64,000 bases of DNA from Siphonodentalium dalli. Its lineage: Eukaryota > Mollusca > Scaphopoda > Gadilida > Siphonodentaliidae. How positions within the stretch are numbered: position 1 is the stretch's first letter; the number at the start of each line of letters is the position of its first letter. The notes under the pieces were generated by a model. The model ran no database searches. It was not told the origin of the DNA and saw only the letters and a list, made by a program, of their open reading frames with translations. Below are positions 31,127 through 54,275 of the stretch, piece by piece. The translations under genes were made by a program, and so were the position numbers. The stretch covers positions 111,588,004 to 111,652,003 of the forward strand of contig CP136064.1 of NCBI GenBank assembly GCA_032622095.1. The letters are read 5' to 3'.

Positions 31127-31193
31127 GTTTCTTCGCCACATATCAACAGGTAAATATACAATTTTCCGAGATGATGTAAGGCACCTGAGTGAA

Positions 31194-31432: not shown

Positions 31433-34315
31433 TTTAGTGAGGTTGGGACCCGACTTTTGTTTCTCAATATATCGGCAACTTATCCATAAGGGAGGGGCTC
31501 TGGAAATATCTAGTTACACAGAGGGAATGTTCCCCTTTTCGATGACATCAAAATTAACTCCCAGGTTCTTCCCACGGCGTGGAAATATCCCAGCGTTTCA
31601 AGTGATAAATTATGCAGATTCATCGGATATTATCTATAACAGATGCACTCTGTAATTTAGTGAGGTTGGGACCCCGACTTTTGTTTCTCAATATATCGGC
31701 AACTTATCCAGAAGGGAGGGGCTCGGGAAATATCTAGTTACACAGAGGGAATGTTCCCCTTTCCGATGACATCAAAATTAATTCCCAGATTCTTCCCACA
31801 ACGTGGAAATATCTCAGCGTTTCAAGTAATAAATTCGGCAGATTCAACAAACATATTCTGTAACAGATGCACTCTGTAAATTTAGTGAGGTTGTGACCCC
31901 AACTTTTGTTTCTTAATATGTCGGCAACTTATCCAGAAGGAAGGGGCTCGGGAAATATCTAGTTATACAGAGGGAATGTTTCCCTTTCCGATGGCATCAA
32001 AATTAATTCCCAGGTTCTGCCCACAGCGTGGAAATATCTCCGCGTTTCAAGTGATAAATTCGGCAGATTCATCGGATATTAACTATAACAGATGCACTCT
32101 GTAAATTTAGTGAGGTTGGGACCCCGACTTTTGTTTCTTAATATCTCGGCAACTTATCCAGAAGGAAGGGGCTCGGGAGATATCTAGTTACACAGAGGGA
32201 ATGTTCCCCTTTCCGATGGCATCAAAATGAATTCCCAGGTTCTTACCACAGCGTGGAAATATCTCAGCGTTTCAAGTGTAATAAATTCGGCAGATTCAAC
32301 AAACATATTCTGTAACAGATACACTCAGTAAATTTAGTGAGGTTGGGACCCACGACTTTTGTTTCTTAATATCTCGACAACTTATCCATTAGGGAGGGGC
32401 TCGGGAAATATCTAGTTATACAGAGGGAATGTTCCCCTTTCCGATGACATAAAAATTAACTCCCATGTTCATCCCACAGCGTGTAAATATCCCAGCGTTT
32501 CAAGTGATAAATTCGACAGATTCATCAGATATTATCTATAACAGATGCACTCTGCAATTTAGTGAGGTTGGGACCTCGACTTTTGTTTCTTAATATCTTG
32601 GCAACTTATCCAGAAGGGAGGGGCTCGGGAAATATCTAGTTACACAGAGGGAATGTTCCCCTTTTCGATGACATCAAAATTAACTCCCAGGTTCTTCCCA
32701 CGGCGTGGAAATATCCCAGGGTTTCAAGTGATAAATTCTGCAGATTCATCAGATATTATCTATAACAGATGCACTCTGTAATTTAGTGAGGTTGGGACCC
32801 CGACTTTTGTTTCTCAATATATCGGCAACTTATCCAGAAGGGAGGGGCTCGGGAAATATCTAGTTACACAGAGGGAAAGTTCCCCTTTCCGATGACATCA
32901 AAATTAATTCCCAGATTCTGCCCACAATGTGGAAATATCTCAGCGTTTCAAGTAATAAATTCGGCAGATTCAACAAACATATTCTGTAACAGATGCACTC
33001 TGTAAATTTAGTGAGGTTGTGACCCCAACTTTTGTTTCTTAATATGTCAGCAACTTATCCAGAAGGGAGGGGCTCGGAAAATATCTAGTTATACAGAGGG
33101 AATGTTCCCCTTTCCGGTGGAATCAAAATTAATTCCCAGGTTCTGCCCACAGCATGGAAATATCTCAGCGTTTCAAGTGATAAATTCGGCAGATTCATCG
33201 GATATTAACTATAACAGATGCACTCTGTAAATTTAGTGATGTTGGGACCCCGACTTTTGTTTCTTAATATCTCGGCAACTTATCCAGAAGGAAGGGGCTC
33301 GGGAGATATCTAGTTACACAGAGGGAATGTTCCCCTTTCCGATGGCATCAAAATGAATTCCCAGGTTCTTACCACAGCGTGGAAATATCTCAGCGTTTCA
33401 AGTAATAAATTCGGCAGATTCAACATACATATTCTGTAACAGATGCACTCAGTAAATTTAGTGAGGTTGGGACCTCGACTTTTGTTTCTTAATATCTCGG
33501 CAACTTATCCAGAATGGAGGGCTCAGGAAATATCTAGTTACACAGAGGGAATGTTCCTCTTTTCGATTACATCAAAATTAACTCCCAGGTTCTTCCCACG
33601 GCGTGGAAATATCTCAGCGTTTCAAGTAATAAATTCGGCAGATTCAACAAACATATTCTGTAACAGATGCACTCTGTAAATTTAGTTAGGTTGGGGGCCC
33701 AACTTTTGTTTCTTAATATGTCGGCAACTTATCCAGAAGGGAGTGGCTCGGGAATTATCTAGTTATACAGAGGGAATGTTCCCCTTTCCGATAGCATCAA
33801 AATTAATTCCCAGGTTCTTACCACAGCGTGGAAATATCTCAGCGTTTCAAGTAATAAATTCGGCAGATTCAACAAACATATTCTGTAACAGATGCACTCA
33901 GTAAATTTATTGAGGTTGGGACCCCGACTTTTGTTTCTTAATATCTCGACAACTTACCCATTAGGGAGGGGCTCGGAAATATCTAGTTATACAGAGGGAA
34001 TGTTCCCCTTTCCGATGACATCAAAATTAACTCCCAGGTTCTTCCCACAGCATGGAAATATCCCAGCGTTTCAAGTGATAAATTCAGCAGATTCATCAGA
34101 TATTATCTATAATAGATGCACTCTGTAATTTAGTGAGGTTGGGACCCTGACTTTTGTTTCTTAATATTTCTGCAACTTATCCAGAAGGGAGGGACTTGGG
34201 AAATATCTAGTTATACAGAGGGAATGTTCCCCTTCCGATGACATCAAAATTAACTCCCAGTTTCTTCCCACAGCGTGGAAATATCCCAGCGTCTCAAGTG
34301 ATAAATTAATTCCCG
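31433..34315 (+). repeat. 225 bp tandem array, about 13 units
   Basis: GTGAGGTTGGGACCCCGACTT recurs every 224-226 bp (about 31436, 31661, 31886, 32111 and so on to 34135). Each unit has GGCAACTTATCCAGAAGGGA, CTAGTTACACAGAGGGAATG, CCACAGCGTGGAAATATC and GCACTCTGTAA. Units come in recurring sub-variants, for example ATTCATCGGATATTA versus ATTCAACAAACATATTCTG. Because these variants repeat in order, multi-unit blocks were copied. Similar 72-78 codon frames recur (31437, 33443, 33892) but each ends at the unit's own CTCTGTAA stop. Confidence 0.95.
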
Positions 34316-34800
34316 GTTACGCTTAGTTAGACTGATATGATGATTGCAGTTTGCAAACGGTTAACAGCTTTTAAATAGCATATATATTGGATATACATGT
34401 AATATACAACAATAAGTGTCGTATAACCAACAATGTATCATTGACTTCAGTTGCAATAAACTACAAATAAACAATGCATGCATGTTGCGGTCATTAGCTA
34501 TATGTGACCATATATGACCCCTGTCAGTCTAGACTATCAGTACACTATCAATAAACATCCATACCGCGCCCATAATCCCTTATACACAGTGTATTCGGGA
34601 GTGTATTGGGAATCACTCATACCAACAATGTTAATTGCCGCTGTCTGCCACAGAGGTGAAAGGTTATACCTGAGTGATTTCTGACTATCATTGTAAAGAA
34701 ATTGTTTCTTAATTTTGTTAGCGTTTCTTTACAAACATATCAAGAATTTAATAGATAAATATACCATTTTGCGAGGTGAGGTTGGGCACCGGAGTTATTT
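34316..34800 (+). repeat. Flank repeat, copy 2
   Basis: This is the direct repeat of 30745-31190. Together with copy 1 it brackets the 13-unit array. The end of this copy (GCGAGGTGAGGTTGGGCACC) is a diverged form of the TIR region at 31160-31190. Confidence 0.9.
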
Positions 34801-35390
34801 CTGATGTTAAATTTAGTGAGGTTGGGACCCCGACTTTTGTTTCTCAATATTTTGGCAACTTATCCAGAAGGGAGGGACTCGGGTGATATCTAGTTATACA
34901 GAGGGAATGTTCCTCTTTCCGATGACATCAAAATTAACTCCCAGGTTCTTACCACAGAGTGGAAATATCTCAGCGTTTCAAGTAATAAATTTGGCAGATT
35001 CAACAAACATATTCTGTAACATATATGCACTCAGTGAATTTAGTGAGGTTGGGACCCCAACTTTTGTTTCTTAATATGTCGGCAACTTATCCAGAAGGGA
35101 GGGGTTCGGGAAATATCTAGTTACACAGAGGGAATGCTCCTCTTTCCGGTGGCATCAAATTAATGCCCAGCTTCTGCCCACAGCGTGGAAATATTCCAGC
35201 GTTTCAAGTGATAAATTCGGCAGATTCATCGAATATTATCTATAGCATATGCACTCTGTAAATTTAGTGAGGTTGGGACCCCGTCTTTTGTTTCTTAATA
35301 TCTCGGCAACTTCTCCAGAAGGGGGGGGGGGGGCTCGGGAAATATCTAGTTATACAGAGGGAATGTTCCCCTGTGCGATGGCTATATTCT
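34801..35390 (+). repeat. Second 225 bp array, about three units
   Basis: Units begin near 34815, 35043 and 35270. The last carries an expanded G run (about 35323-35334) in place of GGGAGGGG. Confidence 0.92.
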
Positions 35391-35607
35391 ATTAAAGTCC
35401 TTGTACATGAAATGGACAAACGCTCTTTATCCATACCCCGCAATGCATTTAAACGAATGCTGTTTATTTGTCATGCTTAATCTTGATATATTGTAAAGGA
35501 AAGTTGTCAGCATAATGCAAACTTACAAACTTAAAAATTCACTCAGGTGCCTCACATCATCTCAGAAAATTGTATATTTACCTGTTGATATGTGGCGAAG
35601 AAACATT

Positions 35608-35914
35608 GATGTTCACGTTACCCGCTATTATATTAACCTCTCTATTTATAATGAATATCTCAATGTGTATGGTAGTTAGATTACCTCATAAACAGAACAT
35701 ATGACCACACGATGAGGAAATTCAATTAACATGCATGTGATTTATAGATTTTAGATGATTTAAATTTTTTTTATTTAATTTAATTTAATTCAATTTAAAC
35801 AAGTTTATAACATCAAACGACTGATGTAGCAAGTCTTACAAATGTCTACTTTTACAAGAGTCATGTCAAAACGTGATATATGGGTAATTTGCTGGCTATA
35901 TTGGCTTAATTAAT
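35608..35914. other. AT-rich unassigned stretch
   Basis: AT-rich sequence with a (TTTAA)n-like patch near 35765-35800. Nothing else is seen. Confidence 0.5.
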
Positions 35915-36900
35915 TTAGTGAGGTTGGGACCCCGACTTTCTTCTATAATCCAGGGTATGCAGATGTACACGTAATGAACAAATTTTATGATGATCAGAAT
36001 AAAGGTACGACCTGTAGCCCGTGCTAAAGGATTTAGTCATGAAAAGAGTAAAATCCAAGATAGCTGCTGGCGGCCATGTTTTTTGGCCGAATGACCCTAA
36101 AATTACTCGTTCCCATCTACATGTCAAAATTAACATCCATGACAAATTTCATGATGATCAGGCAAAGAGTATGACCTGTGGCCCGTGCTAATGGATTAAA
36201 TTTTGAAATCAAAGATGGCCCTGCACTGGTGGCCATGTTTTTTGTCCTAATGACCCCAAAATGACTCGTTCCTATCTACATTCCAATTTCATGATGATCA
36301 GACTAAAGGTACGACCTGTAACCCGTGCTAAAGGATTTAGTCATACAAAGAGTAAAATCCAAGATGGCTGCTGGTGGTCATATTTTTTGGCCGAATGACC
36401 CAAAAATGACTCGTTCCCATCTACGTGTCATTGTTAAAATCCAAGACAAATTTTATGATGATCCGACCAAAGGTACGACCTGAAGCCTGTGTCAAAGGAT
36501 TTAGTCATGCAAAGAGTAAAATCTAAGATGGCTGCCGGCGGTCATGTTTTTTGGCCAAATGACCCCAAAATTACTCTTTCCCATCTAGATGTCAATATTA
36601 ACATCCATGACAAATTTCATGACAATAAGATGAACAGTACGGCCTGTAGCCCGTGCTAATGGATTGAATTTTAAAATACAAGATGGCCGCTGGTGGCCAT
36701 GTTTTTTCCGAATGACCCCAAAATGACTCGTTCCCATCTACATGTCAACATCCATGACAAATTTCATAATAATCGGACCAAAGGTACGAACTGTAGCCCG
36801 TGCTAAAGGAAATTGTTGACGAATCACGCCCACACACACACGCACGACGGATACCAAGCCATGGCAATAGCTCAAACTTTACAAAGTAAAGTTGAGCTAA
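35915..36900 (+). repeat. R160 fragment with right end, preceded by a 225 bp relic
   Basis: The stretch opens with a 30 bp relic of the 225 bp unit (TTTAGTGAGGTTGGGACCCC at 35914). Five or six R160 units follow from 35975. The right end holds TTGTTGACGAATCACG, a CACACACACG spacer, GCCATGGCAA and the hairpin at 36868-36899. Confidence 0.85.
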
Positions 36901-37480
36901 TAATTAAATATATTTACATAGCCTGTCTGTGTTACACTAAATCCTGTTTGGTGATTGTCAACTGTCAATTGGATCACACACTTTCCCAATAACACAAAGA
37001 ATGTAACACGAACATGACGTCACAAATTGGCTACCTAATCTGACCTAATCCCTAAAAGTGGTCAGCAGAATAATGAGGCATGCTTTTCGAAGTTAAGCCA
37101 ATTTGCATCTGAAGCCAGCTATTTGTATCAATCACATTATTGTCGCAAAGTGCTTGAAAATCTTATGTTGGGCTGACTTAATGCATTGCGTGGGCTAGTA
37201 CACAAATTCTCGGCAGATTTTGTGAAAATTAATAAGAATACACTCACCTTTTTGTGGGAATAAATCATCAAAAAACTATATAATATAAGAAATGAATGTA
37301 GTGGGTGTGTGTGTTATTGTGGGATATGTCGCTGTGTTCATAGGGGGAACACATTCACAATATACCTTAACAACCACAGCGCAGTATCCCCCAATAACAC
37401 ACACCCACTACATTTCATTTCTTAAATAACGTCAAGACATCGCATAAGGGGGCAGCCAGGCATTGAATGAGTTAACAAAC
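36901..37480. other. Mostly unassigned, containing one hairpin
   Basis: The only structure is the inverted repeat at 37286-37424, listed separately. Confidence 0.5.
37286..37424. repeat. Inverted repeat with 50 bp arms
   Basis: TAAGAAATGAATGTAGTGGGTGTG and GTTATTGTGGGATA on the left pair with the complement at 37376-37424. The loop is about 40 bp. The arms match apart from a few small differences, suggesting a small MITE or foldback. Confidence 0.75.
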
Positions 37481-37627
37481 CTGTTCCGTTGATTACAAGT
37501 CGAACTGGTATCTGAGCTGTTCCAAAAGCAGTATTATATCCTGGCTCAGTGAAATAGTAATGAAGGTTGTTTCCATCTTGTCAATATGAATGCACGACGT
37601 CCAGTGCTGCACAGGAATTCCTTGGAC
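37481..37627 (-). pseudogene. Broken exon of an unidentified, possibly secreted, protein
   Basis: On the minus strand a good acceptor (ACTTTTCAG) precedes 37627 and a good donor (ACAG|GTTTGT) follows 37481, framing exactly 147 bases. The downstream two thirds translate to a very protein-like run including N-L-H-Y-Y-F-T-E-P-G-Y-N-T-A-F and I-P-V-R-L-V-I-N-G-T. In that frame an in-frame TGA sits just upstream (H-S-Y-stop-Q-D-G). If that stop is a single-base loss of a tryptophan codon, both exon ends are phase 1. Alternatively the start is in another frame (V-Q-G-I-P-V-Q-H-W) and one indel has occurred. Either reading requires one lesion. I do not recognise the family; N-G-T is a potential glycosylation site. 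Confidence 0.5.
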
Positions 37628-37965
37628 CTGAAAAGTATATATTAACCTTTACTTTACTGAATGCAGCTATAAAGGTATACATTGGAATAAGTCTATTATT
37701 CATTTGGAGGGATATTCATGAAAAATGGGCAGACGACAGATACACGAGTGGATAATACAACTGCAGAAGAATTCCTTTTCATTGGTGGGAAATGTTTTGA
37801 TAATAAGTCCAATAAATGGCCTATTGTTTAACTTATTATCAGAACATTTCATAAGGGAGATACTCGGCAATGACTATTTAGTAAAGAAAGTGTTAAAGAC
37901 ATATTATGCACCTATTTCAGTTTTCACTTACTGAAGGTGATTTTACTATTCAGCCACCACACCTA

Positions 37966-38175
37966 CAGTAATGCTCTAATTAATCGACTCCTTAACCACA
38001 GCAGAATTATGGGTAACTTTTCAGGATTCAGTTGGAAATATGGCTTGTTGCCATTCATCAGAAAGCTCTTGGCCAAGAGCTTTCCGATTAATGGCAACAA
38101 GACATATTTCCGACTAAATCCTGAAAAGTTACCCATAATTCTGCTGTGGGGAGTCGATTATTTAGAGCATTACTG
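37966..38175. mobile_element. Palindromic 210 bp MITE, TA-flanked
   Basis: CAGTAATGCTCTAATTAATC on the left is mirrored on the right, and the whole element folds at CTCTTGGCCAAGAG in its centre. TA stands outside each end (37964-37965, 38176-38177), as for Tc1/mariner-type elements. The arms are about 100 bp with few mismatches. A half copy lies at 56967-57055. Confidence 0.88.
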
Positions 38176-38279
38176 TATTTGAATAATGTATCAGTCAAGT
38201 ATTATAGCTGAAAAATTCAACATTGGTTTTACCTTTACTAAAACATAACATCTGACTTGCATAATAATGTAAATGAACA

Positions 38280-38540
38280 AGCCTGCAAATAGTGTGTCTG
38301 TCATTTGCAGAATGAGGTCCACAGAGTGTAAATTTAGTGATGCTATCCCACATCCCAAATTCACCCTCTGGGAACCTCATTCTGCTGAGGTCTCAACTCC
38401 TATGGCCCATGGGAGACCTGAGGATCAGATTGAAGTTCCCCAGTTGAAGTTGGTGATGTTCACACATTAGTCACCTCGATTATGCATTTTATCTTCTCTA
38501 ATTTTATGGGATATAGAATCTTCCCAGAAGAGAACAAGAG
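38280..38540. mobile_element. MITE copy, GCAGAATGAGG family
   Basis: GCAGAATGAGGTCC, then GTGATGCTATCCCA, is mirrored by AATTCACCCTCTGGGAACCTCATTCTGC. It is followed by the family tail (GGGAGACCTGAGG, CCAGTTGAAGTTGGTGATG). Related copies are at 22690-23130 and 62976-63430. Confidence 0.7.
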
Positions 38541-38544
38541 CATC

Positions 38545-40403
38545 GTAACAAATTTCATGACGATCTGACCAAAGCTACAACCTGTAGGCCGCGCCAGAGG
38601 ATTTAGTCATGCAAAGAGTTAAATCCAAGATGGCTTCTGGTGACCATTTGTTTTGGCCGAATGACCCCCAAAATGACTCGTTCCCATCTACATGTCAATA
38701 TTAATATCCATGACAAATTTCATGATGATCAGACAAACGGTACGACCTGTAGCCTGTGCTAATGGATTGAATATTGAAATCCAAGACGGCCACTGGCGGC
38801 CATGTTTTTTTCCCGAATGAACCCAAAATGACTCGTTCCCATCTACATTTCAATGTCAACAGCTATGACACATTTTATGATGACCCGACCAAGGGTACGA
38901 CCTGTAGGTCGTACCAAAGAATTTAGTCATGAAAAGAGTAAATGTAAGATGGCGGCCGGCAGCCATGTTTTTTAGCCGAATGACCCCAAAATTACTCGTT
39001 CCCATCTACATGTCAATGTTAACATTCAAGACAAATTTCATGATGATCAGACCAAAGGTACCTGTACGACCTGTAGCCCGTGCTACTGGATTGAATTTTG
39101 AAATCCAAGATGGCCACTGGCGGCCATGTTGTTTGTCCGAATGACCCCAAAACGACTCGTTCCCATCTGCATTCCAATTTCAACAGCCATGACAAATTTC
39201 ATGATGATCAGACTAAAGGTACGACCTGTAGCCCGTGCTAAAGGATTTAGTCATACAAAGAGTACAATCCAAAATGGCTGCTGGCGGCCATGTTTTTTTG
39301 CCGAATGACCCCAAAATGACTCGTTCCCATCTACATGTCATTGTTAACATCCATGAAAAAATTTATGATGATCCGACCAAAGGTACGTCTACGACCTGTA
39401 GGCCGTGCCAAAAAATTTAGTCATGCAAAGAGTAAAATCTAAGATGGCTGCCGGCGCGGTGGCCATGTTTTTGGGGCGAACAACCCCAAAATTACTCGTT
39501 CCCATCTACATGTCAATATTAACATCCAAGACAAATTTCATGATGATCAGACGAACAGTACGACCTGTAGCCCGTGCTAATGGATTGAATATTGAAATCC
39601 AAGATGGCCACTGGCGGCCATGTTTTTTTCCTGAATGAACACAAAATGACTCGTTCCCATCAACATGTCAATGTCAACAGCCATGACAAATTTCATGATG
39701 ATCAGAATGAAAGTGTCAATGACACTGTAGCTCAACTTAGGTAGGGGAATAATTTAATGGTTTACAGTAAATGGAGAAATAGGAAAGATGCTGATTGAAA
39801 TGTCTTACCTGTGCCAAAGGATTTAGTCATGCAAATAGTAAAATCCAAGATGGCTGCTGCCGAATGACCCCAAAAGAACTTGTTCCCATCTACATGTCAT
39901 TATTAACATCCATGACAAATTTTATGAAGATCCGACCAAAGCTACAACCTGTAGCCTACTCCAAAGGATTTAGTCATGCAAAGAGTAAAATCCAAGATGG
40001 TTGCTGGCGGCCATGTTTTTTTGCCGAACGACCCCAAAATGACTTGTTCCGATCTACATGTCAATATTATCATCCATGACAAATTTCATGATTATCAGAC
40101 GAATAGTATGACATGTAGCCCGCCCGCGTCAATGGATTTAATTTTGAAATCCAAGATGGGCCACCAGCGGCCATGTTTTTTGGCCGAATGACCCATCTAC
40201 ATGTCAATGTCAACATTCATGATAAATTGCATAAAGATCAGACAAAAGGTACGACATGTAGCCCGCGCCAAAGGATTTAGTCATGCAAAGAGTAAAATCC
40301 AAGATGGCTGCTGGTGGCCATGTTTTTTGGCTGAACGACCCCAAAATAACTAGATGTCATTGTTAACATCCATGACAAATTTCATGAAGATCTGACCAAA
40401 GCT
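38545..40403 (+). repeat. R160 array, forward block
   Basis: About eleven A/B units. A left module (TGAAAGTGTCAATGACACTG) is embedded at 39708-39810, so one element has inserted into, or been joined to, another. The last unit leads with CATGAAGATCTGACCAAAGCT straight into the 295 bp TIR element. Confidence 0.9.
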
Positions 40404-40698
40404 AAAGATCGAACACATATGCACATGGCATACTGTTGTAAAATGCTCATTTGTGTTCTATATTATCCAATACATATCGTTGTATATGTGAACAAAGACA
40501 GCACTTTATTTGATGTATCTGTCATATATATGTTATATTATTGAATAAATATATGCCACTACTCACGTTTTATTGAACATATACATGACATAGACTTTTA
40601 TACAGGCACTGGATGTTCGATGTTGTAAACATATATGTGGTATTTTACAACACAAATGTGCATGTTACAACACCAGTGTGCATATGTGTTCGATCTTT
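40404..40698. mobile_element. 295 bp TIR element at palindrome axis, copy 1
   Basis: The ends are AAAGATCGAACACATATGCA and its complement TGCATATGTGTTCGATCTTT. The interior matches the 460 bp family near 2840-3560 in reverse orientation. The flanks GACCAAAGCT and AGCTTTGGTC are themselves mirrored because the R160 arrays on the two sides face each other. Confidence 0.9.
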
Positions 40699-41384
40699 AG
40701 CTTTGGTCAGATCTTCATGAAATTTGTCATGAATATTGACATTGACATGTAGATGGGAACGAGTCATTTTGGGGTCATTTGGCCAAAAAACATGGCCGCC
40801 AGCAGCCATCTTGGATTTTACTCTTTGCATGACTAAATCGTTTAGCACGGGCTACAGGTCGTACCTTTGGTCGGAACTTCATGAAATTTGTCATTGATAT
40901 TAGAAATGACATGTATATGGGACGAGTCATTTTGGGGTTATTTGGCCGAAAAACATGGCCGCCAGCAGCCATCTTGGATTTTACTCTTTGCATTACTAAA
41001 TCCTTTGGCGCGGGCTACAGGTTGTACCTTTGGTCTAATCTTTATGAAATTTGTCATGGATATTGACATTGACATGTAGATGGGAACGAGTCATTTGGGG
41101 TCATTTGGCCAAAAAACATGGCCGCTGGCGGTCATCTCGGATTTAAAAATTTAAGCCATTGGCGCGGGCTACAGGTCGTACTGTTCGTCTGATCATGAAA
41201 TGTGTTATGGATGTTAACAATGACATGTAGATGGGAACGAGCCATTTTAGGGTTTTTCGGCATTAAAGCATGGCTGCCAATGGCCATGTTGGATTTTACT
41301 TTTTGCATGACTAAAGCTATCAAATATTTTTGAATATAGCCGCCAGCAACCATCTTAGATTTTACTTGTATATACATACCGGTA
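40699..41384 (-). repeat. R160 array, reverse block 1
   Basis: Units read in the opposite direction (GGCCGCCAGCAGCCATCTTGG, TACTCTTTGCATGACTAAATC). The block runs from the palindrome axis to an inverted left module. Confidence 0.92.
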
Positions 41385-41474
41385 TATCTCTCCATGTTGA
41401 TAACCTAGTATTAGACATTCAATTTTCCACATTCCTAATCGCTCCATTGACTGTAACACATTAAATTATTCCCT
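41385..41474 (-). repeat. Inverted R160 left module, copy 1
   Basis: It is the complement of 51369-51480: AGGGAATAATTTAATG, CAGTCAATGGAGCGATTAGG, TCTAATACTAG and TATCAACATG. It lacks the terminal palindrome GTGTCAATGACAC and is fused at 41474 to a forward array. Its inner edge (GAGAGATATACCGG) is the unoccupied counterpart of the Helitron insertion site at 51478. Confidence 0.9.
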
Positions 41475-41983
41475 GAAGATCTGACCAAAGGTACGACCTG
41501 TAGCCCGTGCCAAAGGATTTAGTAATGTAAAGAGTAAAATTCAAGATGGTTGCTGGCGGCCATGTTTTTTGGCCGAATGACCCCAAAATGACTCGTTCAC
41601 ATCTACATGTCATTGTTAACATCCGTGACAAATTTCATGAAGATCCGACCAAAGGTATGACCTGTAGCCCGTGCTAAACGATTTAGTCATGCAAAGAGTA
41701 AAATTCAAGATGGTTGCTGGCGGCCATGTTTTTTGGCCGAATGACCCCAAAATGACTCGTTCACATCTACATGTCATTGTTAACATCCGTGCCAAATTTC
41801 ATGGAGATCCGACCAAAGGTATGACATGTAGCCCGTGCTAAACGATTTAGTCATGCAAAGAGTAAAATTCAAGATGGCTGCTGGCGGCCATGTTTTTTGG
41901 CGGAATGACCCCAAAATTACTCGTTCCATCTAGATGTCATTGTTAACATCCATGACAAATTTCATGAAGATCTGACCAAAGCT
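41475..41983 (+). repeat. R160 array, forward block 2
   Basis: Three to four type A units, nearly identical to each other (AAACGATTTAGTCATGCAAAG, TTCAAGATGGTTGCTGGCGG). They lead into the second 295 bp element. Confidence 0.9.
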
Positions 41984-42278
41984 AAAGATCGAACACATAT
42001 GCACACATCATGCTGTTGTAAAATGCTCATTTATGTTCTATATTATCCAATACATATGGTTGTATATGTGAACAAAGACAGCACTTTATTTGATGTATGT
42101 GTCATATATATGTTATATTATTGAATAAATATATGCCACTACTCACTTTTTATTGAACATATACATGACATTGACTTTTATACAGGCACTGGATGTTCGA
42201 TGTTGTAAACATATATGTGGTATTTTAAAACACAAATGTGCATGTTACAACACCAGTGTGCATATGTGTTCGATCTTT
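41984..42278. mobile_element. 295 bp TIR element at palindrome axis, copy 2
   Basis: Same length, ends and flanks as copy 1, with only scattered substitutions, for example CACATCATGCTG against CACATGGCATACTG. Confidence 0.9.
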
Positions 42279-42890
42279 AGCTTTGTTCAGATCTTCATGA
42301 AATTTGTCATGAATATTGACATTGACATGTAGATGGGAACGAGTCATTTTGGGGCCATTTGGCCAAAAAACATGGCCGCCAGCAGCCATCTTGGATTTTA
42401 CTCTTTGCATGACTAAATCCTTTGGCGCGGGCTACAGGTTGTACCTTTGGTCTAATCTTTATGAAATTTGTCATGGATTTTGACATTGACATGTAGATGG
42501 GAACGAGTCATTTGGGGTCATTTGGCCAAAAAACATGGCCGCTGGCGGTCATCTCGGATTAAAAAATTTAAGCCATTGGCGCGGGCTACAGGTCGTACTG
42601 TTCGTCTGATCATGAAATGTGTTATGGATGTTAACAATGACATGTAGATGGGAACGAGCCATTTTAGGGTTTTTCGGCATTAAAGCATGGCTGCCAATGG
42701 CCATGTTGGATTTTACTTTTTGCATGACTAAAGCTATCAAATATTTTTAAATATAGCCGCCAGCAACCATCTTAGATTTTACTTTTATATACATACCGGT
42801 ATATCTCTCCATGTTGATAACCTAGTATTAGACATTCAATTTTCCACATTCCTAATCGCTCCATTGACTGTAACACATTAAATTATTCCC
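42279..42890 (-). repeat. R160 reverse block 2 with inverted left module
   Basis: This is a shorter version of 40699-41474 with one fewer unit pair. The inverted left module is at 42796-42890 and is again fused to a forward array at CCCTGAAGATCTG. Confidence 0.9.
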
Positions 42891-43237
42891 TGAAGATCTG
42901 ACCAAAGGTACGACCTGTAGCCCGTGCCAAAGGATTTAGTAATGTAAAGAGTAAAATTCAAGATGGTTGCTGGGGGCCATGTTTTTTGGCCGAATGACCC
43001 CAAAATGACTCATTCACATCTACGTGTCATTGTTAACATCTGTGACAAATTTCATGAAGATCCGACCAATGGTACGACCTGTAGCCCGTGCTAAACGATT
43101 TAGTCATGCAAAGAGTAAAATTCAAGATGGCTGCTGGCGGCCATGTTTTTTGGTGGAATGACCCCAAAATTACTCGTTCCCATCTAGATGTCATTGTTAA
43201 CATCCATGACAAATTTCATGAAGATCTGACCAAAGCT
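42891..43237 (+). repeat. R160 array, forward block 3
   Basis: About two units, the shortest of the forward blocks, matching block 2. Confidence 0.9.
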
Positions 43238-43532
43238 AAAGATCGAACACATATGCACACGGCATGCTGTTGTAAAATGCTCATTTATGTTCTATATTAT
43301 CCAATACATATGGTTGTATATGTGAACAAAGACAGCACTTTATTTTATGTATGTGTCATATATATGTTATATTATTGAATAAATATATGCCACTACTCAC
43401 TTTTTATTGAACATATACATGACATCGACTTTTATACAGCCACTGGATGTTCGATGTTTTAAACATATATGTGGTATTTTACAACACAAATGTGCATGTT
43501 ACAACACCAGTGTGCATATGTGTTCGATCTTT
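43238..43532. mobile_element. 295 bp TIR element at palindrome axis, copy 3
   Basis: Third copy with identical length and ends. Spacing from copy 2 is 1254 bp; copies 1 and 2 are 1580 bp apart. The difference is due to the number of R160 units. Confidence 0.9.
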
Positions 43533-44424
43533 AGCTTTGGTCAGATCTTCATGAAATTTGTCATGAATATTGACATTGACATGTAGATGGGTACGAGTCA
43601 TTTTGGGGTCATTTGGCTAAAAAACATGGCCGCCAGCAGCCATCTTGGATTTTACTCTTTGCATGACTAAATCCTTTGGCATTGGCTACAGGTCGTACCT
43701 TTGGTCGGAACTTCATTAAATTTGTCATTGATATTAGAAATGACATGTATATGTGAACGAGTCATTTTGGGGTTATTTGGCCGAAAAACATGGCCGCCAG
43801 CAGCCATCTTGGATTTTATTCTTTGCATTACTAAATCCTATGGCGCGGGCTACAGGTTGTACCTTTGGTCTAATCTTTATGAAATTTGTCATGTATGTTA
43901 ACACTGACATGTAGATGGGAACGAGTCATTTTGAGGCCATTCGGCCAAAAAACATGGCCGCCAGCAGCCATCTTGGATTTTACTCTTTGCATTACTAAAT
44001 CCTTTGGCGCGGGCTACAGGTTGTACCTTTGATCTAATCTTTATGAAATTTGTCATGAATATTGACATTGGCATGTAGATGGGAACGAGTCATTTTGGGG
44101 TCATTTGGCCAAAAAACATGGCCGCTGGCGGTCATCTCGGATTTAAAAATTCAATCCATTGGCGCGGGCTACAGGTCGTACCTGTTATGGATGTTAACAA
44201 TGACATGTAGATGGGAAAGAGCCATTTTAGGGTTATTCGGCATTAAAACATGGCTGCCAGTGGCCATCTTGGATTTTACATCTTGCATGACTAAAGCTAG
44301 CCGCCAGCAACCATCTTAGATTTTACTTTTATATATATCTCTTCATGTTGATAACCTAGTATTAGACATTCAACTTTCCACATTCCTAATCGCTCCATTG
44401 ACTGTAACACATTAAATTATTCCC
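43533..44424 (-). repeat. R160 reverse block 3 with inverted left module
   Basis: About five reverse units. The inverted left module is at 44335-44424 and is fused to the following forward array at the same base as in the other two blocks. Confidence 0.9.
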
Positions 44425-47302
44425 TGAAGATCTGACCAAAGGTACGACCTGTAGCCCGTGCCAAAGGATTTAGTAATGTAAAGAGTAAAATTCAAGATGG
44501 TTGCTGGCGGCCATGTTTTTTGGCCGAATGACCCCAAAATGACTCGTTCACATCTACATGTCATTGTTAACATCCGTGACAAATTTCATGAAGATCCGAC
44601 CAAAGGTATGACCTGTAGCCCGTGCTAAACGATTTAGTCATGCAAAGAGTAAAATTCAAGATGGTTGCTGGCGGCCATGTTTTTTGACCGAATGAACACA
44701 AAATGACTCGTTCACATCTAGATGTCATTGTTAACATCCGTGACAAATTTCATGAAGATCCGACCAAAGGTATGACCTGTAGCCCGTGCTAAGAATTTAG
44801 TCATACAAAGAGTAAAATCCAAGATGGCTGCTGGCGGCCACGTTTTTTCCGCCAAATGACCCCAAAATTACTCGTTCCCATCTACATATCAACATTAACA
44901 TCCAGGACAAATTTCATGATGATCAGACGAATAGTACGACCTGTGGCCCGTGCTAATGGATTAAATTTTGAAATCCAAGATGGCCGCTGGCGGCCATGTT
45001 TTTTTGTCCGAATGACCCCAAAATGACTCGTTCCCATTTACATTCCAATTTCAACAGCCATGAAAAATTTTATGATGATCAGACTAAAGGTACGACCTGT
45101 AGCCCGTGCTAAAGGATTTAGTCATACAAAGAGTAAAATCCAAGATGGCTGCTGGCGGCCATCTTTTTTGGCCGAATGACCCCAAAATGACTCGTTCCCA
45201 TCTACATGTCATTATTAACATTCATAAAATTTTTTATGATGATCAGACTAAAGATACAACCTGTAGCCCGTGCTAAAGGATTTAGTCATACAAAGAGTAA
45301 ATTCCAAGATGGCTGCTGGCGACCATGTTTTTGGCCGATTGACCCCAAAATTACCCGTTCCCATCTATATGTCATTGTTAACATCCATGAGAAATTTTAT
45401 GATGATCAGACTAAAGGTACGACCTGCAGCCCGTGATAAAGAAGTTAGTCATACAAAGAGTAAAATCTAAGATGGCTGCTGGTGGCCATGTTTTTGGCCG
45501 AATGACCCCAAAATTACTCGTTCCCATCTACATGTAAATATTATCATCCATGACAAATTTCATGATGATCAGACAATCAGTACGACCTGTGGCCCGTGCT
45601 AATGGATTAAATTTTGAAATCCAAGATGGCCGCTGGCGGCCATGTTTTTTGGCCGAATGACCCCAAAATGACTCGTTCCCATCTACATGTCAATATTAAC
45701 ATTCTTGACAAATTTTATGATGATCAGACTAAAAGTAGGTCCTGTAGCCCGTGCTAAAGGATTTAGTCATGCAAAGAGTAAAATCCAAGACGGCTGCTGG
45801 CGGCCATGTGTTTTGGCCGATTGACCCCAAAATGACTCGTTCCAATCTACATGTCATTGTTAACATCCATGACAAATTTGATGATGATCAGACTAAAGGT
45901 ACCACCTGTAGCCCGTGCTAAAGAATTTAGTCATACAAAGAGTAAAATCCAAGATGGCTGCTGGCGGCCATGTTTTTGGGCCGAATGACCCCAAAATTAC
46001 TCGTTCCCATCTACATATCAATATTAACATCCATGACAAATTTCATGACGATCAGACGAACAGTGCGACCTGTGGCCCGTGCTAATGGATTGAATTTTGA
46101 AAACAAAGATGGCCACTGGCGGCCATGTTTTTTGTCCGAATGACCCCAAAATGACTCGTTCCCATCTACATTTCAATTTCAACAGCCATGATAAATTTCA
46201 TGATTATCAGACTAAAGGTACGACCTGTAGCCCGTGCTAAAGGATTTAGTCATACAAAGAGTAAAATCCAAGATGGCTGCTGACGGCCATGTTTTTTGGC
46301 CGAATGACCCCAAAATGACTCGTTCCCATCTACATGTCATTATTAACATTCTTGACAAATTTTATGATGATCAGACTAAAAGTAGGACCTGTAGCCCGTG
46401 CTAAAGGATTTAGTCATGCAAAGAGTAAAATCCAAGACGGCTGCTGGCGGCCATGTTTTTTGGCCGATTGACCCCAAAATGACTCGTTCCAATCTACATG
46501 TCATTGTTAACATCCATGACAAATTTGATGATGATCAGACTAAAGGTACCACCTGTAGCCCGTGCTAAAGAATTTAGTCATACAAAGAGTAAAATCCAAG
46601 ATGGCTGCTGGCGGCCATGTTTTTGGGCCGAATGACCCCAAAATGACTCGTTCCCATCTACATTTCAATTTCAACAGCCATGATAAATTTCATGATTATC
46701 AGACTAAAGGTACGACCTGTAGCCCGTGCTAAAGGATTTAGTCATACAAAGAGTAAAATCCAAGATGGCTGCTGGCGGCCATGTTTTTTGCCCGAATAAC
46801 CCAAAAATGACTCGTTCCCATCTACATGTCATTGTTAACATCCATGTCAAATTTTATGACGATCTGACTGAAGGTACGACCTGTAGCCCGTGCTAAAGGA
46901 TTTAGTCATGCAAAGAGTAAAATCGAAGATGGCTGTTGGCGGCCATGTTTTTTGGCCGAATGACCCCAAAATTACTCGTTCCCATCTACATGTCAATATT
47001 AACATCCATGACAAATTTCATGACGATCAGACGAACAGTACGGCCTGTAGCCCGTGCTAATGGATTGAACTTTGAAATCTAAGATGGCCGCTGGCGGCCA
47101 TGTTTTTTTTCCGTATGACCCCAAAATGAATCATTCCGGTACAAATGTTGATGTCAACAGCTATGACAAATTTCATAATGATCCGATCAAAGGTACGACC
47201 TGTAGCCTCTATTGTTGACGCGTTACGTACACACGCACACACGGACGACGGACGACAAAGCCATGGCAATAGCTCAAACTTTACAAAGTAAAGTTGAGCT
47301 AA
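44425..47302 (+). repeat. R160 array, forward block 4 with right end
   Basis: About seventeen units of alternating A and B type. A multi-unit block is itself duplicated: 45730-46000 and 46370-46640 share AAAGTAGG(T/A)CCTGTAGCCC, CCAAGACGGCTGC and GGTACCACCTG. The array ends with TTGTTGACGCGTTACG, ACGGACGACGGACGAC, GCCATGGCAA and the hairpin at 47270-47301. Confidence 0.92.
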
Positions 47303-47850
47303 AAATGGATGTATAGCCAAATTTCACTTCTTTTTTGCTCACGATATCAGTGACAATAAAATCTTCGTTACTGTGATTAACATTACAAGCTGATCCACAT
47401 TAACATGGAAAACAATGTGAAATTATTCAAGCTGGCCCGGCTGGCTTTCAATTTATTTGTTAAGATTTTATGTTTTACGTTGTCAAAAGTCTATTTTATT
47501 CCATTATTTATTATATCTTTATTTCCATGTCACATATGGTCAAGTGTGCTTTCATTTTATTGCTTATTTTCAGCTGAGTTCTGCATAGTTATTCTAATTT
47601 TGTTGTATCAGTAGATGGAATCCTGATTAAATTTTATTTTTCCAATAGCGCAGTGTCTAGTTCTATCAAGTTGAATTTGGGTTATTGTTGGCCATTGTGC
47701 AACTGATCCAACTTCTGATAACCTCTATATGTAGTATAGCATTAGTATTAACTATATAGACCTGTTTCTGTTCAAAACACATCAAAATAAGACTCAATAG
47801 CAGGAATGGAAAACAAATTTGGCATATGGAAAAAACTGTTTTTTGGAACC
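47303..47850. other. Unassigned stretch
   Basis: A 69-codon hydrophobic frame (47405-47614, plus) could by composition be membrane-spanning, but it has no splice or promoter support. I do not annotate it as a gene. Confidence 0.4.
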
Positions 47851-50800
47851 ATTAAAGCGACACCCACCCACCCCATCATACGTGCTTGGAAATTTTTTCC
47901 GACCCCCCCCCCCGCCTGGAACTTTAACTTGAATTAGGTCCTGTAACCCATTATATGTTTTTATTTCCACCATTTTTAGTGTGTTTGGATAGGTCTGCAC
48001 CTATATAAAATATTAGCAAAAGCTTGGGCTTCTCAGTTGAATTTAAGGATAAGCACCCATGATAAAACTACTCAGCATCCGTTCCTATAAAATCATAATT
48101 TGGGGTCAGTTTTCTCTCAGTCTCAGACTATACTCATTTGTGAAAATGATTCCACATATGACTTTAGAACATAGACAGGCAATCAATCAAAATATTTGGG
48201 CACCTGGAAAGGATTTTTGGCTCAAGGGGAGGGGAATATTTGTGTTTATTAATAGTCAAATTGGTATTTTTAACATTTATTGGGCCGTGTATCACATTGT
48301 GTGGGTACCAGTCTAATAAATTTATGGTTTTTGGATAGGTATGCATCTATACAAATGGCTTGCACAAAGTTTGGGCTCCTCAGTGGGTTTTAAGGGTATG
48401 GAGACAGCCCAACACCCACAGCACCCATGAAAAAAATATACAGCACCCGTGCCTATGAAAACATATTTCTGAATCAGATCTCTTTCAGACTATACCCATT
48501 CTCAAAATTACTCCACATTTGACGCTAGAATATATAAAGGCAATGGGAGAAAAAATTGTTGGGCATCTAATTGGGATTTTGGGCTTTGGTCAGGGAGAGG
48601 GGAATATTTGGGTCTCTAATTAATCGTCAAATTGGTATATTTAACTTCAAATTGGGCCCTGTGACCCATTATATGTATCAACTACTAGGTACATGTATAT
48701 CTTAGTGTTTTTGGAAAGATCGGAATCAGTATAAGAAGATTTGCAAAAGTTTGGGCTCCTCAGTTAATTCCAGGGTTTTAAGGGCATGGAGACAGCCCAA
48801 CACCCACGGCACCTGTGATAAAACCATACAGCACCCATGCCTATAAACTCATATTTTGAGGTCAGTTTTCCATCAGACTACAATCATATATATATATATA
48901 TATTAAGATAATTCCACATCTGACTTCAGAATATAGGCAGGCAATGAACAAAAATATAATTGGGCACCTTGGTTGAGTTTTGGACTCAAGGGGAGGGGAA
49001 TATTTGTGTTTATTAATAGTCAAATTGGTATTTTTAACTTTCATTGGGCCCCTGCATCACATTTTGTGGGTACCAGTCTAGTACATTTAGGGTGTTTGGA
49101 TAGGTATGCATCTATACAAATGGTTTGCAGAAAGATTGGGCTCCTCAGTGGGTTTTAAGGGTATGGAGACAGCCCAACACCCACAGCACACATGAAAAAA
49201 ACATACAGCACCCGTGCCTATGAAAATATATTTCTGAATCAGATCTCTTTCAGACTATTCCCATTCTCAAAATTACACCACATTTGACGTTAGAATATAT
49301 ATAGGCAATGGGAGAAAAAATTGTTGGGCATCTAATTGGTCAGGGAGAGGGGAATATTTGGGTCTCTTAATGGTCAAATTTGTATATTTAACTTCAATTG
49401 GGCCCTGTGACCCATTATAACTTCTAGGTATATCTTAATGTTTTTGGAAAGATCTGCATCAATATAAGAAGATTTGCAAAAGTTTGGGCTCCTCAGTGGG
49501 TTTTAATGGTATGGAGACAGTCCCAACACCCACGGCACCCGTGATAAAACCATACAGCACCCATGCCTATAAACTCATATTTTGAGGTCAGCTTTCTATC
49601 AGACTATACTCATTATTAAGACAATTCCACATCTGACTTCAGAATATAGGCAGGCTATGAACAAAAACATATGGGTACCTGGGTGGGGTTTTGGGCTGAG
49701 GGGATGGCAATATTTGGGTCTTTTATAGGTATACATATACTTCTAGGTATCTTAGTGTTTTTGGAAAGATCAGCATCGGTATAAGAAGTTTTGCAAAAGT
49801 TTGGGCTTCTCAGTGGGTTTTAAGGGTATGGAGACAGCCCAACACCCACAGCACCAATGACAAATTCATACAGCACCCGTGCCTATGAAAACATATTTCT
49901 GAGTCAGCGATATTTCAGACTATACCCATCCTGAAAATTATTCCACATTTGATTTTAGAATATATAGATGCAATGGGAAAAAAATTTGTTGGGCATCTGT
50001 TTGGGATTTTGGGCTTCGGTCAGGGGGAGGGAAATATATATATATTTTTGAATTGTCATATTGGTATATTTAAGTTGAATTGGGTCATATGACCCATTAT
50101 AGGTATCTACTTCTAGCACTTTTGTTGTTTGTGGATAGGTATTCATCTATGCAAATAGATTGTACAAAGTTTGGGTTCCTCAGTGGGTTTTAAGGGTATG
50201 GAGACAGCCCAACACCCACAGCACCCATGACAATTCAAGTTAAATTGGTATATTTAACTTGAATTGGGCCATATGACCCATTATATGTATCTACTTCCAG
50301 CACTTCTGCTGTTTATAGAAATTTAAGGTATGCATCTATGCAAATAGATTGCACAAAGTTTGGGTTCCTCAGTGAGTTTAAGGGTATGGAGACAGCCCAA
50401 CACCCAAATTACCCTCGATAAAACCATACAGCACCCGCGCCTATGAAAACATATTTCTGGGTCACTGTTGTCTCAGACTATAACCATTCTGAAAATGATT
50501 CCACATTTGACTTTAGAATATATATAGGCAATGGGAAAAAATTATTTGGGTACCTGAATGGCATTTTGGGCTCTGGTCAGGAGGAGGGGGATATTTGGGA
50601 TTTTTTAATGGTCAAATTGGTATATTTAAGTTGAACTGGGCCATATGACCCATTATTGGTACCTACTTCCAGCACTTTTGTTGTTTGTGTAATTGTGGAT
50701 AGGAATGCATCTATGCAAATAGTTTGCACAAAGGTTGGGCTCCTCAGTGGGTTTTAAGGGTATGGAGATAGCCCAACACCCACAGCTGGCACAGCACCCA

Positions 50801-51352
50801 TGATAAAACAATAAAGCACCCGTGTCTATGGAAACATATTTCTGGGTCACTGTTGTCTCAGAATATACCCATTCAGAAAATGATTCCACATTTGACTTTA
50901 GAATATGTAGAGGCAATGGGGACAAAAATTTGTTGGGCATCTGTTTGGGATTATCATTTTGGGCTTCGGTCAGAGGGAGAGGAATATTTGGGGTTTTTTA
51001 ATGGTCAAATTGGTATATTTAACATGGGCCCATTACAGGTACCTACTCCCAGCACTTTTGTTGTTTGTGGATAGGTATGCATCTATGCAAATACATGTAG
51101 TTTACACAAAGTTTGGGCTCCTCAGTGGGTTTTAAGGGTATGGAGAGAGCCCAGCACCCACAGCACCCATGGTAATAGCATACAACACCCATGCCTATGA
51201 AAATATATTTCTGAAAATCACTCCACAGTCAAAAGTGACATAGGTAAAAACTTCTAGGTCTCTTAATCAGTATAAGAAAATTTGCAAAAGTTTGGGCTCA
51301 TCAGTGGGTTTTAAGGGTATGGAGACAGCCAAAAACCCACAGCACCCATGAA
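47850..51352 (+). repeat. 370 bp tandem array, about ten units
   Basis: GTGGGTTTTAAGGGTATGGAGAC recurs near 48384, 48778 (variant), 49148, 49496, 49815, 50185, 50373, 50738, 51126 and 51306. Full spacing is 350-390 bp, with two deleted units of 180-190 bp. Other constant phrases are GACAGCCCAACACCCACAGC, ATACAGCACCCGTGCCTATG and AATTGGTATATTTAA. Minus-strand frames repeat with the units and are not coding. The array ends exactly where the R160 element at 51355 begins. Confidence 0.9.
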
Positions 51353-51354
51353 AT

Positions 51355-54125
51355 AAAAGTGTCAATGACACTGTAGCTCAACTTGGAAAGGGAATAATTT
51401 AATGTATTACAGTCAATGGAGCGATTAGGAATGTGGAAAGTTTAATGTCTAATACTAGTTTATCAACATGAAGATATATCTATTATATTTGAAAGATCTG
51501 TGTGTGTGTGTGTTTGTGTGTGTCTAATCGATGGACTCGAAAACGACTAAGCCAATTTCGATGAAATTTGGTATTTTAGGGTATTTTCGGCCGGCGACGA
51601 ACATAGGCATATTTATTTGTCCGTGCGAGGTCAACTTTTCACGTGCCGAGGTCAAATCTGTTTTCACGCCGTTTTGCGCTAATATATTTCAGTTCGGTGC
51701 TCACAAATCGATTCGATATAGCGCGAATAATAAATTGCCAGTCATATAATTTGCACAGTTAGAATCTGTGTGGCTTCATCTTTCCAACGATATATAATAT
51801 GTATGTATCCGTTTTAGTTATCTGCCTCAATTATTAAGAAGAAGTGGTACGATCTTTTATCAGGATAAAAACAATGCGTAACTTCTATGACGTCGTTAGA
51901 GGTCATAAAGTTAGATCACGTTAACTCTCACCCGGCCGATGCATTTGACTGTTTCAGACGTCTTGGCGATATCTCGGGCACCGATGGTAATTTAGCTTTA
52001 CGTTGAAACTTGATAATTAATGAGTGTGTGTATATGAGGCGCGTTTATATACTTCAGTGGAAATCAAATCGGGTTAAACTGGCGGATTTTTACGGACGAA
52101 ATTAATTTGATGCATAGGGTATCTCGGTATCCGCTGGGCCGATTTCCCGGTATCCGCTGGGCCGATTTCCACCATTTTTGGGGTGTTGGTGTTTGACCCC
52201 ACCTGACCTTGACCTTCAAAATGGTCAATTCAAGGTCAAATCGGGTAAAACCGGATGGATTTCGACGGGTACTTTTGTCGGGTACTTTTGTTCGGGCAGT
52301 GTTTTGGACGGGTCAAATCGTGACCCCACTTGACCTTGGCCTTCAAAATAGACAATTCAAGGTCAAACCCCGGACGAAGTCGGGTCACCTTCTAGTATAT
52401 ATATAAAAGTAAAACCTAAGATGGTTGCCGGCGGCTATGTTTTCCAATAAAATTCAAAAACATTTGATAGCTTTAGTCATCCAAATAGTAAAATCCAAGA
52501 TGGCTGCCGGCGACCATGTTTTTTGGCCAAATAAAGCCCCAAATTACTCGTTCCTATTTACATGTCAATATTAACATCCATGACAAATTTCATGATGATC
52601 AGACAAACAGTACGACCTGTAGACCGTGCTAATAGATTGAATTTTGAAATCCAAGATGGCTCTGGAGGCCATGTTTTTTGTCTAAATGACCCCAAAATGA
52701 CTTTAATATTCTCATCTACATTCCAATTTCAACAGCCAGGACAAATTTCATTATGATGAGACTAAAGCTACAACCTGTAGCCCATGGTAAAGGATTTAGT
52801 CGTACAAAGAGTAAAATCCAAGATAGCTGCATGCTGGCAGCCATGTTTTTTGGCCGAATGACCCCAAAATGACTCGTTCCCATCTACATGACACTGTTAA
52901 CATTCATGACAAATTTTATGATGATCCGACCAAAGGTACGACCTGTAACCTGTGCCAAAGGGTTTAGTCATGCAAAGAGTAAAATCAAAGATGGTTGCCG
53001 GCGGCCATGCCAAATTTCATGATGATCTGATGAGCAGTACGACATGTATGATCTGATGAACAGTACGACATGTAGCCCGTGCTAATGGATCGAATTTTGA
53101 AATCCAAGATGGCCACTGGCGACCATGTTTTTTGTCCGAATGACCCCAAAATGACTCGTTCCCATCTACATTCCAATTTCAACAGCCATGACAAATTTTA
53201 TGATGATCAGACTAAAGGTACAACCTGTAGCCCTTGCTAAAGGATTTAGTCATACAAAGAGTAAAATCCAAAATGGCTGCTGGCGGCCATGTTTTTGGCC
53301 GAATGACCCCAAAATGACTCGTTTCCCATCTACATGTCACTGTTAACATCCATGACAAATTTTATGATGATCAGACTAAAAGTACGACCTGTAGCCCGTG
53401 CTAAAGAATTTAGTCATACAAAGAGTAAAAACCAAGATGGCTGCTGGTGGCCATGTTTTTGTGCCGAATGACCCCAAAGTTACTCGTTCCCATCTACCGG
53501 TATATGTTAATATTAACATCCACGACAAATTTCATGATGATCAGATGAACAGTACGATATGTAGCCCGTGCTAATGGATTGAATTTTGAAATCCAAGATG
53601 GCCACTGGCGGCCATGTTTTTTGTCCGAATCATCCCAAAATTACTCGTTCCCATCAACATTCCAATTTCAACAGCCATGACAAATTTTATGATGATCAGA
53701 CTAAAGGTACGACATGTAGCCCGTGCTAAAGAATTTATTCATACGAAGAGTAAAATCCAAGATGGCTGCTGGCGGCCATGTTTTTGTGCCGAATAACCCC
53801 AAAATTACTCGTTCCCATTTACATGTCAATATTAACATCCGTGACAAATTTCATGATGATCAGACAAACAGTGCGACCTGTGGCCTGTGCTAATGGATTG
53901 GACTTTGAAATCCAAGATGGCTGCTAGTGGCCATGTTTTTTTTCGAATGACCCCAAAATGAATCATTCCAGTCTAAATGTTGATGTCAACAGCTATGACA
54001 AATTTCATAATGATCTGAACAAAGGTACGACCTGTAGCCTGTATTGTTGACAAATCATGCACACACGGACGACGGTCGACAAAGCCATGGCAATAGCTCA
54101 AACTTTACAAAGTAAAGTTCAGCTA
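51355..54125 (+). mobile_element. Complete R160 element, interrupted by a Helitron-like insert
   Basis: This is the best full-length example. The left module runs from AAAAGTGTCAATGACACTG through TATCAACATGAAGATA (51355-51478). The Helitron-like insert is at 51479-52395. About ten A/B units follow (52396-54035), then a CACACACGGACGACGGTCGAC spacer and the terminal hairpin at 54094-54125. The left GTAGCTCAACTT and right AAGTT(G/C)AGCTA are inverted copies of each other. Short asymmetric terminal repeats, an internal tandem core and a 3' palindrome fit Helentron-associated (HINE) or pearl-type elements; that placement is an inference. Confidence 0.8.
51479..52395 (+). mobile_element. Non-autonomous Helitron-like insertion, 917 bp
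   Basis: It starts TCTATTATATTT and ends with a GC-rich hairpin (ACCCCGGAC-GAA-GTCGGGT) ten bases before CTAG. The base before it is A and the base after it is T, the canonical A|TC...CTAG|T pattern of Helitrons. No Rep/helicase is encoded. A (TG)n run lies at 51500-51524. The interior repeats TGACCTTGACCTTCAAAAT and GGTATCCGCTGGGCCGATTTCC. The paralogous R160 sequence at 41345-41400 continues across the insertion point without it. Confidence 0.8.
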
Positions 54126-54275
54126 AAAATGACTGTAGGAAAAAAATATACAGGGCCCTGCCAGGAAAAAATGTGTAAGCCGGGCTGCTGAACCACACAC
54201 AAACCCCCGCCTAGTGTTCAGAATCAGAAAAAATTGCAGACCCCACCCTGCTTAAACGCAATCAATTGCGCTTAA
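54126..54275. other. Unassigned spacer
   Basis: Short non-repetitive sequence ending in AATTGCGCTTAA, which is the left target of the next element. Confidence 0.4.

Follow-up and report, generated by a model that had tools for sequence, protein, structure and literature searches.

How does a satellite array come to be folded into a series of palindromes, and did this happen where the array is found today? The question is raised by a 64,000-bp stretch from the scaphopod mollusc Siphonodentalium dalli (here called the window; G000:C4:111588004-111652003, from an assembly of 2.23 Gb in 9 contigs), in which a ~160-bp repeat, R160, runs forward and then in reverse around three copies of a 295-bp core. 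Based on detailed analysis of the window and of related loci, we propose that the array is a palindromic higher-order satellite with a variable number of units, placed inside a HINE-like element that itself lies inside a giant IS3EU-type transposon without a recognised gene. One ancestral inverted duplication would have been spread by transposition, with units gained and lost afterwards. We assign this reading a probability of roughly 85%; a circular step in the transposition is less certain.

The proposed sequence of events is as follows. In an ancestor, a single inverted duplication at the core would have joined a reversed HINE fragment to a forward R160 array. A transposase supplied in trans would then have moved the resulting palindromic unit to new sites, after which unequal exchange or replication slippage would have altered the unit number copy by copy. 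Less certainly, the transposon would pass through a circle or a tandem form in which its two ends are joined across ~1 bp, and imprecise opening of this junction would leave a few opposite-end bases on some copies, including the one in the window.

The palindromic array and its recurrence

The three core palindromes, to which no strand is assigned, occupy 40404..40698, 41984..42278 and 43238..43532 (axes 1, 2 and 3), positions already given in an earlier note on this DNA and now borne out by sequence, repeat and BLAST analysis. Pairwise, they differ at 7-10 of 295 aligned positions. The core is itself imperfectly palindromic: the outer ~50 bp match at 85%, and the entire core matches its own reverse complement at 67%. 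Each copy sits where forward R160 turns into reverse R160, as had been described, and two lines of evidence agree on this: the core flanks are mirrored, without direct repetition (50/60, 53/60 and 54/60 bp agree across axes 1, 2 and 3), and in the BLAST matches unit position 118 is the last of forward R160 (axes 2 and 3) and 121 the first of reverse R160 (axes 1 and 3).

Behind the cores lie reverse-strand R160 blocks at 40699..41315 (4 units), 42279..42732 (3 units) and 43533..44299, followed on the same strand by inverted, truncated left modules at 41376..41473, 42793..42890 and 44334..44424. These modules share a single cut base, after which forward R160 resumes, at the same repeat position each time, at 41474, 42891 and 44425; the fusion at one identical base (41473/41474, 42890/42891 and 44424/44425) thus stands as originally noted. 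The third fusion opens the long forward R160 array (44425..47207, plus strand; 17 copies by TRF, 18 matches by sequence comparison). Likewise, the core-to-core spacings of 1580 and 1254 bp are explained by R160 count, the difference of 326 bp amounting to about two units (4+4 versus 3+3).

The array is enclosed by a putative HINE-like element (Helentron-type, Pearl-like) on the minus strand at 39712..47301. A palindrome, AGTGTCAATGACACT, at 39712 stands 16 bp ahead of the subterminal motif TAGCTCAAC at 39728, and GTTGAGCTA is found at 47293 after a microsatellite-like GGACGAC stretch. The same pairing recurs at 27130/28770, and palindrome and motif are also present at 51358 and 56692. In the accessible part of their description, the HINE/Pearl elements of oysters carry subterminal inverted motifs, a short palindrome, a microsatellite and satellite-like central repeats (PMC7492417). 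Measured against that partial account, the element in the window has subterminal inverted motifs, a 3' palindrome, a microsatellite and central tandem repeats; in particular, it shares with these non-autonomous Helentrons of bivalves one end that carries a palindrome with a subterminal inverted motif, a GGAC-type microsatellite and central repeats of ~160 bp. It differs in being nested in a larger transposon and in that its repeats have become a palindromic higher-order array centred on the 295-bp core. Judging from these features, R160 represents the central repeats of a HINE-like element, and the reversed block together with the truncated left module is, on the same grounds, a fragment of such an element in opposite orientation.

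The axis and the junction are shared with other loci. A core probe returned 322 candidates; the best 40, which alone were scored, are spread over 8 of the 9 contigs. Among these 40, 13 (counting the window copy) show 100% identity across the full 297 bp. From the best-scoring 40 we fetched 20 other loci, which are therefore not a random sample of core-like sequence. At all 20, spread over 8 contigs, forward R160 lies on one side of the core and reverse R160 on the other. Counting core matches of ~200 bp or more, which leaves out three pieces in C8:106, the flanks are the same apart from point changes at 60 of 61 axes (three of them the window's), and perfect mirror symmetry of at least 15 bp is seen at 42 of the 61. 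Similarly, 48 of 50 inverted-module junctions are alike apart from single substitutions, a count that takes in left-module matches of at least ~60 bp in the one orientation. Exceptional are C6:157, where the second core is truncated and directly adjoins the inverted module, and C8:106, where one core is split by an insertion. Because the arrangement recurs at 20/20 other fetched loci, it is beyond chance; axis and junction, for which the earlier note had recommended a look elsewhere in the genome, both recur at every other locus read.

Unit number varies between copies. Among the seven loci read furthest, three cores were read in the window and at C5:100, four at C7:149 and five at C8:134, with at least five at C3:216 and C6:87 and at least six at C8:6. 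At C5:37, core match positions and two probes place the units, in scattered fashion, over 36 kb, a stretch that was not read through. In 11 of the 20 other loci, the core met first in the stretch read equals the window's first core exactly, and in 4 more it has 1-2 differences; in three of the remaining five (C7:150, C2:34 and C8:106) the stretch begins inside the array, which therefore has an earlier core than the first one read. The window's third core recurs without change as a later core in C8:134, C5:100, C7:149, C8:50 and C6:87. This sharing of cores between loci implies that several unit types predate the spread, and that copies later gained or lost units.

The earlier note had regarded the core as a terminal inverted repeat element. 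Independent mobility is unsupported, as is an origin of the 295-bp core by insertion: no direct target duplication was found around it, and it resembles subterminal repeats of the giant element described below. Two such repeats near the left end of that element (2804-3267 and 3257-3734, together 2804..3734, plus strand; ~79% alike) match the core at 82% over 244 bp and 81% over 213 bp. Because of the 82% likeness over 244 bp, the core may originate from the giant element's own subterminal repeats.

The giant element and its ends

The whole arrangement is carried by a giant transposable element on the plus strand, which fills the window from 2700..64000 and continues to C4:111657175, 5,172 bp past the window end, giving a length of 66,473 bp. 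Its left border is sharp at window position 2693-2700 in 11/11 loci. A probe across this border, with 40 of 320 candidates scored, lists 41 places, and similarity is lost at the border in 40 of them, at C4:227 with an imperfect match over 26 further bp. The right border at C4:111657175 (L062 position 5172) was seen in the window copy, in both copies at C8:50 and in all but one of another 14 pieces fetched for right ends. Another right end, at extended position 67662 in one locus, was rejected as an indel in C5:100, since the strongest matches mostly run through it (22 of the 23 listed first).

Exact ends listed number 48 left and 22 right, and in 24 pairs the distance from left to right end ranges from 40,666 to 355,039 bp (median 73,300). 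Interior probes fall close to these ends. A left end is no more than 120 kb away for 39/40 core matches, 39/40 matches of 5501-6300, 35/40 matches of 20001-20800 (four matches of this last probe being more diverged, at 78-81%) and 23/24 matches of 57001-57800, where the comparison covers the 24 full-length matches. Of the longer copies, C8:128 and C5:37 hold longer arrays, and C5:220 and C8:128 other DNA. The copy at C5:220119149-220474187 has a matching 6-bp duplication and ~290 kb of other DNA inside; the idea that its 355 kb represents a giant array expansion was discarded, as 14 of 16 probes lack R160 and core, one (L117) holds a full R160 array and one (L112) a short R160 stretch. We note that element ends are also found in inverted pairs with the right ends facing, 1.3 kb apart at C8:50751849-50913102 (one copy with a 6-bp duplication, the other without) and 13.6 kb apart at C5:190138287-190224817, and that two left ends of the same orientation lie 3.45 kb apart at C7:41061922 and 41065375.

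The left end, TATAGTGTTATTATTGTAACTATATTATATACC (2700..2733, plus strand), is imperfectly repeated, in inverted form, at the right end, whose inward reading is TATGGCGTTTTTTTTGTAACTATATTGTATCC; the terminal inverted repeat, imperfect and ~32 bp long, reads TATAGTGTTATTATTGTAACTATATT / TATGGCGTTTTTTTTGTAACTATATT (TATAG...CCATA). On either side of the element copies, similarity stops at one and the same base, and the flanks beyond it are unrelated. An exact 6-bp target duplication is present in 19 of the 24 copies with both ends read, in 15 of them directly abutting the ends (C8:128, C5:191, C8:6, C5:220, C1:112, C2:212, C8:134, C5:84, the minus copy of C8:50, C5:37, C8:106, C2:34, C7:178, C5:100 and the outer ends of C4:194) and in 4, identified by eye, behind a filler of 4-6 nt (C7:149, C7:150, C6:28 and C5:190). 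The duplication at C5:86 matches at 5 of 6 positions. Outside the 24 stand C3:216, whose right end is missing from the piece, C6:87 and C5:239, with a left end only, and C4:227, C3:144, C7:51 and C1:52, whose left ends were read without right ends. By its ends, duplications and dispersal, the 66-kb repeat is a transposon.

As far as the accessible parts of two accounts go, IS3EU elements have termini TA..TA, or TAYGG..CCRTA in fungi, and 6-bp target duplications (PMC10045372, PMC12730594). On that basis the giant element is alike in its TA..TA termini, its CCATA right end, its inverted ends of ~30 bp and its 6-bp duplications. It differs in its left end, TATAG, and in size, with 66 kb here and 41-355 kb between ends elsewhere (the longest with foreign DNA), in its large internal satellite arrays and in that no transposase was found among the 19 frames tested. 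Ends and duplication thus fit an IS3EU-like element, and because no transposase was found we use this term and do not call it a proven member.

Besides the R160 array, the giant element contains other repeats. At window 58851-62383 two opposite-orientation arrays of one ~170-bp repeat meet near 60.07 kb, forming an inverted satellite within the element, and a ~225-bp repeat array with a 449-bp higher-order period occupies 31424-35380. G-rich repeats in both orientations lie near the element's right end (L062:1977-3549).

Spread, joined ends and alternative explanations

A foldback or template switch at the window locus, followed by tandem amplification there, was the origin suggested in the earlier note. 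The uniformity of axis and junction within the window fits such an event, which as a local one is nevertheless very unlikely: the same axis and junction are present at 20/20 other loci, and first cores are common between loci rather than within them. Since the block lies inside a dispersed ~66 kb transposon and first cores are common between loci, a foldback- or template-switch-like event would have taken place once in an ancestor and not at the window locus. That the palindromic array reflects a collapse or misjoin in assembly, as the earlier note feared, is very improbable; such arrays are hard to assemble and a single assembly was available, but a consistent architecture with differing unit numbers at 20 other places largely answers this concern. 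Spread of the 66-kb repeat by segmental duplication or ectopic recombination, with no transposition, could draw on the inverted pairs at C8:50 and C5:190 and on the tandem pair of 40,667 and 40,666 bp at C4:194, yet we consider it very unlikely in view of the same-base breaks on both sides, the unrelated flanks and the exact 6-bp duplications in 19/24 copies. Finally, a Helitron/Helentron-type rolling-circle element might mobilise the entire 66 kb, given the HINE-like elements inside it and the ability of rolling-circle elements to make tandems. The outer ends are, however, inverted repeats with 6-bp duplications, and rolling-circle elements are not known to have either, which leaves this explanation with hardly any probability.

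Transposition of the giant element is accordingly preferred, and the joined ends found at some copies bear on how it may proceed. At C4:194, read in element orientation, there is a 430-bp left-end fragment together with two elements of 40,667 and 40,666 bp; this dimer contains a full junction, CGCCATA-G-TATAGTG, and has a single outer duplication, CCTCTG. Opposite-end traces were sought at left ends, as the five terminal nt of the right end at a distance of 0-6 nt, and at right ends, as a following TATAG. Left ends gave 4 footprints (spacer G in the window copy, G at C4:194, T at C7:149 and TTG at C1:204), versus ~0.3 expected (48 x 7/1024, base composition ignored), and right ends gave 3 (G at C1:204, G at C4:194 and A at C6:28). 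The C4:194 junction stands in both sets. In total, 5 copies bear opposite-end footprints, mostly with a 1-nt spacer, and backward-pattern controls returned none. The window copy's left end is preceded by CCATAG, in which the five right-end nucleotides CCATA are followed by a single base. At C7:149 the opposite-end tip sits inside the exact duplication AACCGT, and a weaker footprint, ATA-A, lies inside ACCCGC at C7:150.

These genomic footprints suggest an IS3-like circular intermediate. In bacterial IS2, junction spacers of one and two bp occur at 90 to 10, according to the available portion of the report (PMC3299598), and the abutted ends with a 1-bp spacer at C4:194 resemble the copy-out/paste-in transposition of the IS2/IS3 family as presented there. 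The giant element differs in its size and in being non-bacterial, with no transposase seen, and the likeness is read from genomic footprints in an assembly. KolobokP of molluscs, in what could be consulted of its description, forms tandem multimers flanked by target duplications, for which a circular intermediate is discussed on the strength of comparable traces (PMC9587614). The flanked tandem multimers are a point of likeness, whereas KolobokP, on the same partial description, has long terminal direct repeats and the joined ends here are inverted repeats. No statement that IS3EU uses circular intermediates was found in the open literature searched, in so far as its text was accessible. Tentatively, and at somewhat less than even odds, we suggest that the giant family (41 kb to >100 kb, no gene recognised, IS3EU-type ends) moves by copy-out/paste-in with ~1-bp-spaced junctions as in bacterial IS2, thereby seeding the genome with palindromic satellites that are resized after landing, the 5-nt tips being scars of junction opening.

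Right end-G-left end junctions could also result from ordinary recombination or from insertion of one copy beside another, without any circular intermediate. We regard this as a real possibility, though falling short of an even chance: a single complete junction was seen, two of the five footprint copies lack a target duplication, and the 1-bp difference in length between the two C4:194 copies is what a later tandem duplication could leave. Adjacent insertion, on the other hand, would leave a 6-bp duplication between the copies where 1 bp is observed; the 5-nt opposite-end footprints at 1 nt recur at independent sites, at the excess over expectation given above, and that of C7:149 lies within its exact duplication.

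Several observations weigh against our interpretation, in its circular step or as a whole. Only one full junction was seen, and most copies are without a trace, footprints being confined to five, with the weak one at C7:150 as a sixth. The window copy and C1:204 are the two footprint copies without target duplication, and the C4:194 dimer could have another origin. No duplication is present in 4 of the 24 copies (the window copy, C4:75, C1:204 and the plus copy of C8:50), and the left end, TATAG, departs at one place from the TAYGG quoted for fungal IS3EU in the sources as far as accessible. Moreover, a transposase was not found in the window copy, where 19 tested frames gave no family above the cut-off and the longest reading frame outside the arrays has 199 amino acids.

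Coding content and significance

That no transposase was found in the 19 frames tested in the window copy is expected if the element is non-autonomous. These frames also gave no match to Polinton/Maverick families (protein-primed DNA polymerase, integrase, capsid), and Pfam matches below the cut-off to DUF6347, DUF4647 and Intron_maturas2 were treated as noise. A mobilising partner was sought through PF24764 (rva_4), which we take to be an IS3EU-related integrase. The nearest of its 126 genomic matches is 287 kb away from any exact end on the list (112 distinct places compared). No ends matching those of the giant element were seen in six rva_4 regions that we fetched, two of which belong to one family. 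Seventeen rva_4 matches are located in a stop-free open frame of 294 amino acids with near-identical scores, perhaps marking a recently active transposon family. A related end set, TATRGTATTNTTATTGTAACTATATT, has 27 exact matches (TATRGTATT), among which no compact inverted pair was found; on C3, two ends of this type that share one mismatch (2528810 and 2626440) are inverted relative to each other at a distance of 97.6 kb. Just outside the giant element's left end, reverse-transcriptase-like frames are present at window 798-2086 (minus strand), the frame at 798-1169 giving a weak RVT_1 match below the cut-off.

Transposon-borne satellites, HINE elements and IS3EU are already known. New, as far as the accessible text of the open literature searched shows, is the combination of a giant IS3EU-like element without a recognised gene, an internal palindromic higher-order satellite and end-junction footprints. 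The case shows a route by which a complex palindromic satellite can arise in a transposon and be copied to dozens of sites, its size then becoming site-specific. It also suggests that an element this large can be mobile while carrying no recognisable genes, and the 48 left and 22 right ends represent a natural data set on the possible use of circular intermediates by eukaryotic relatives of IS3.

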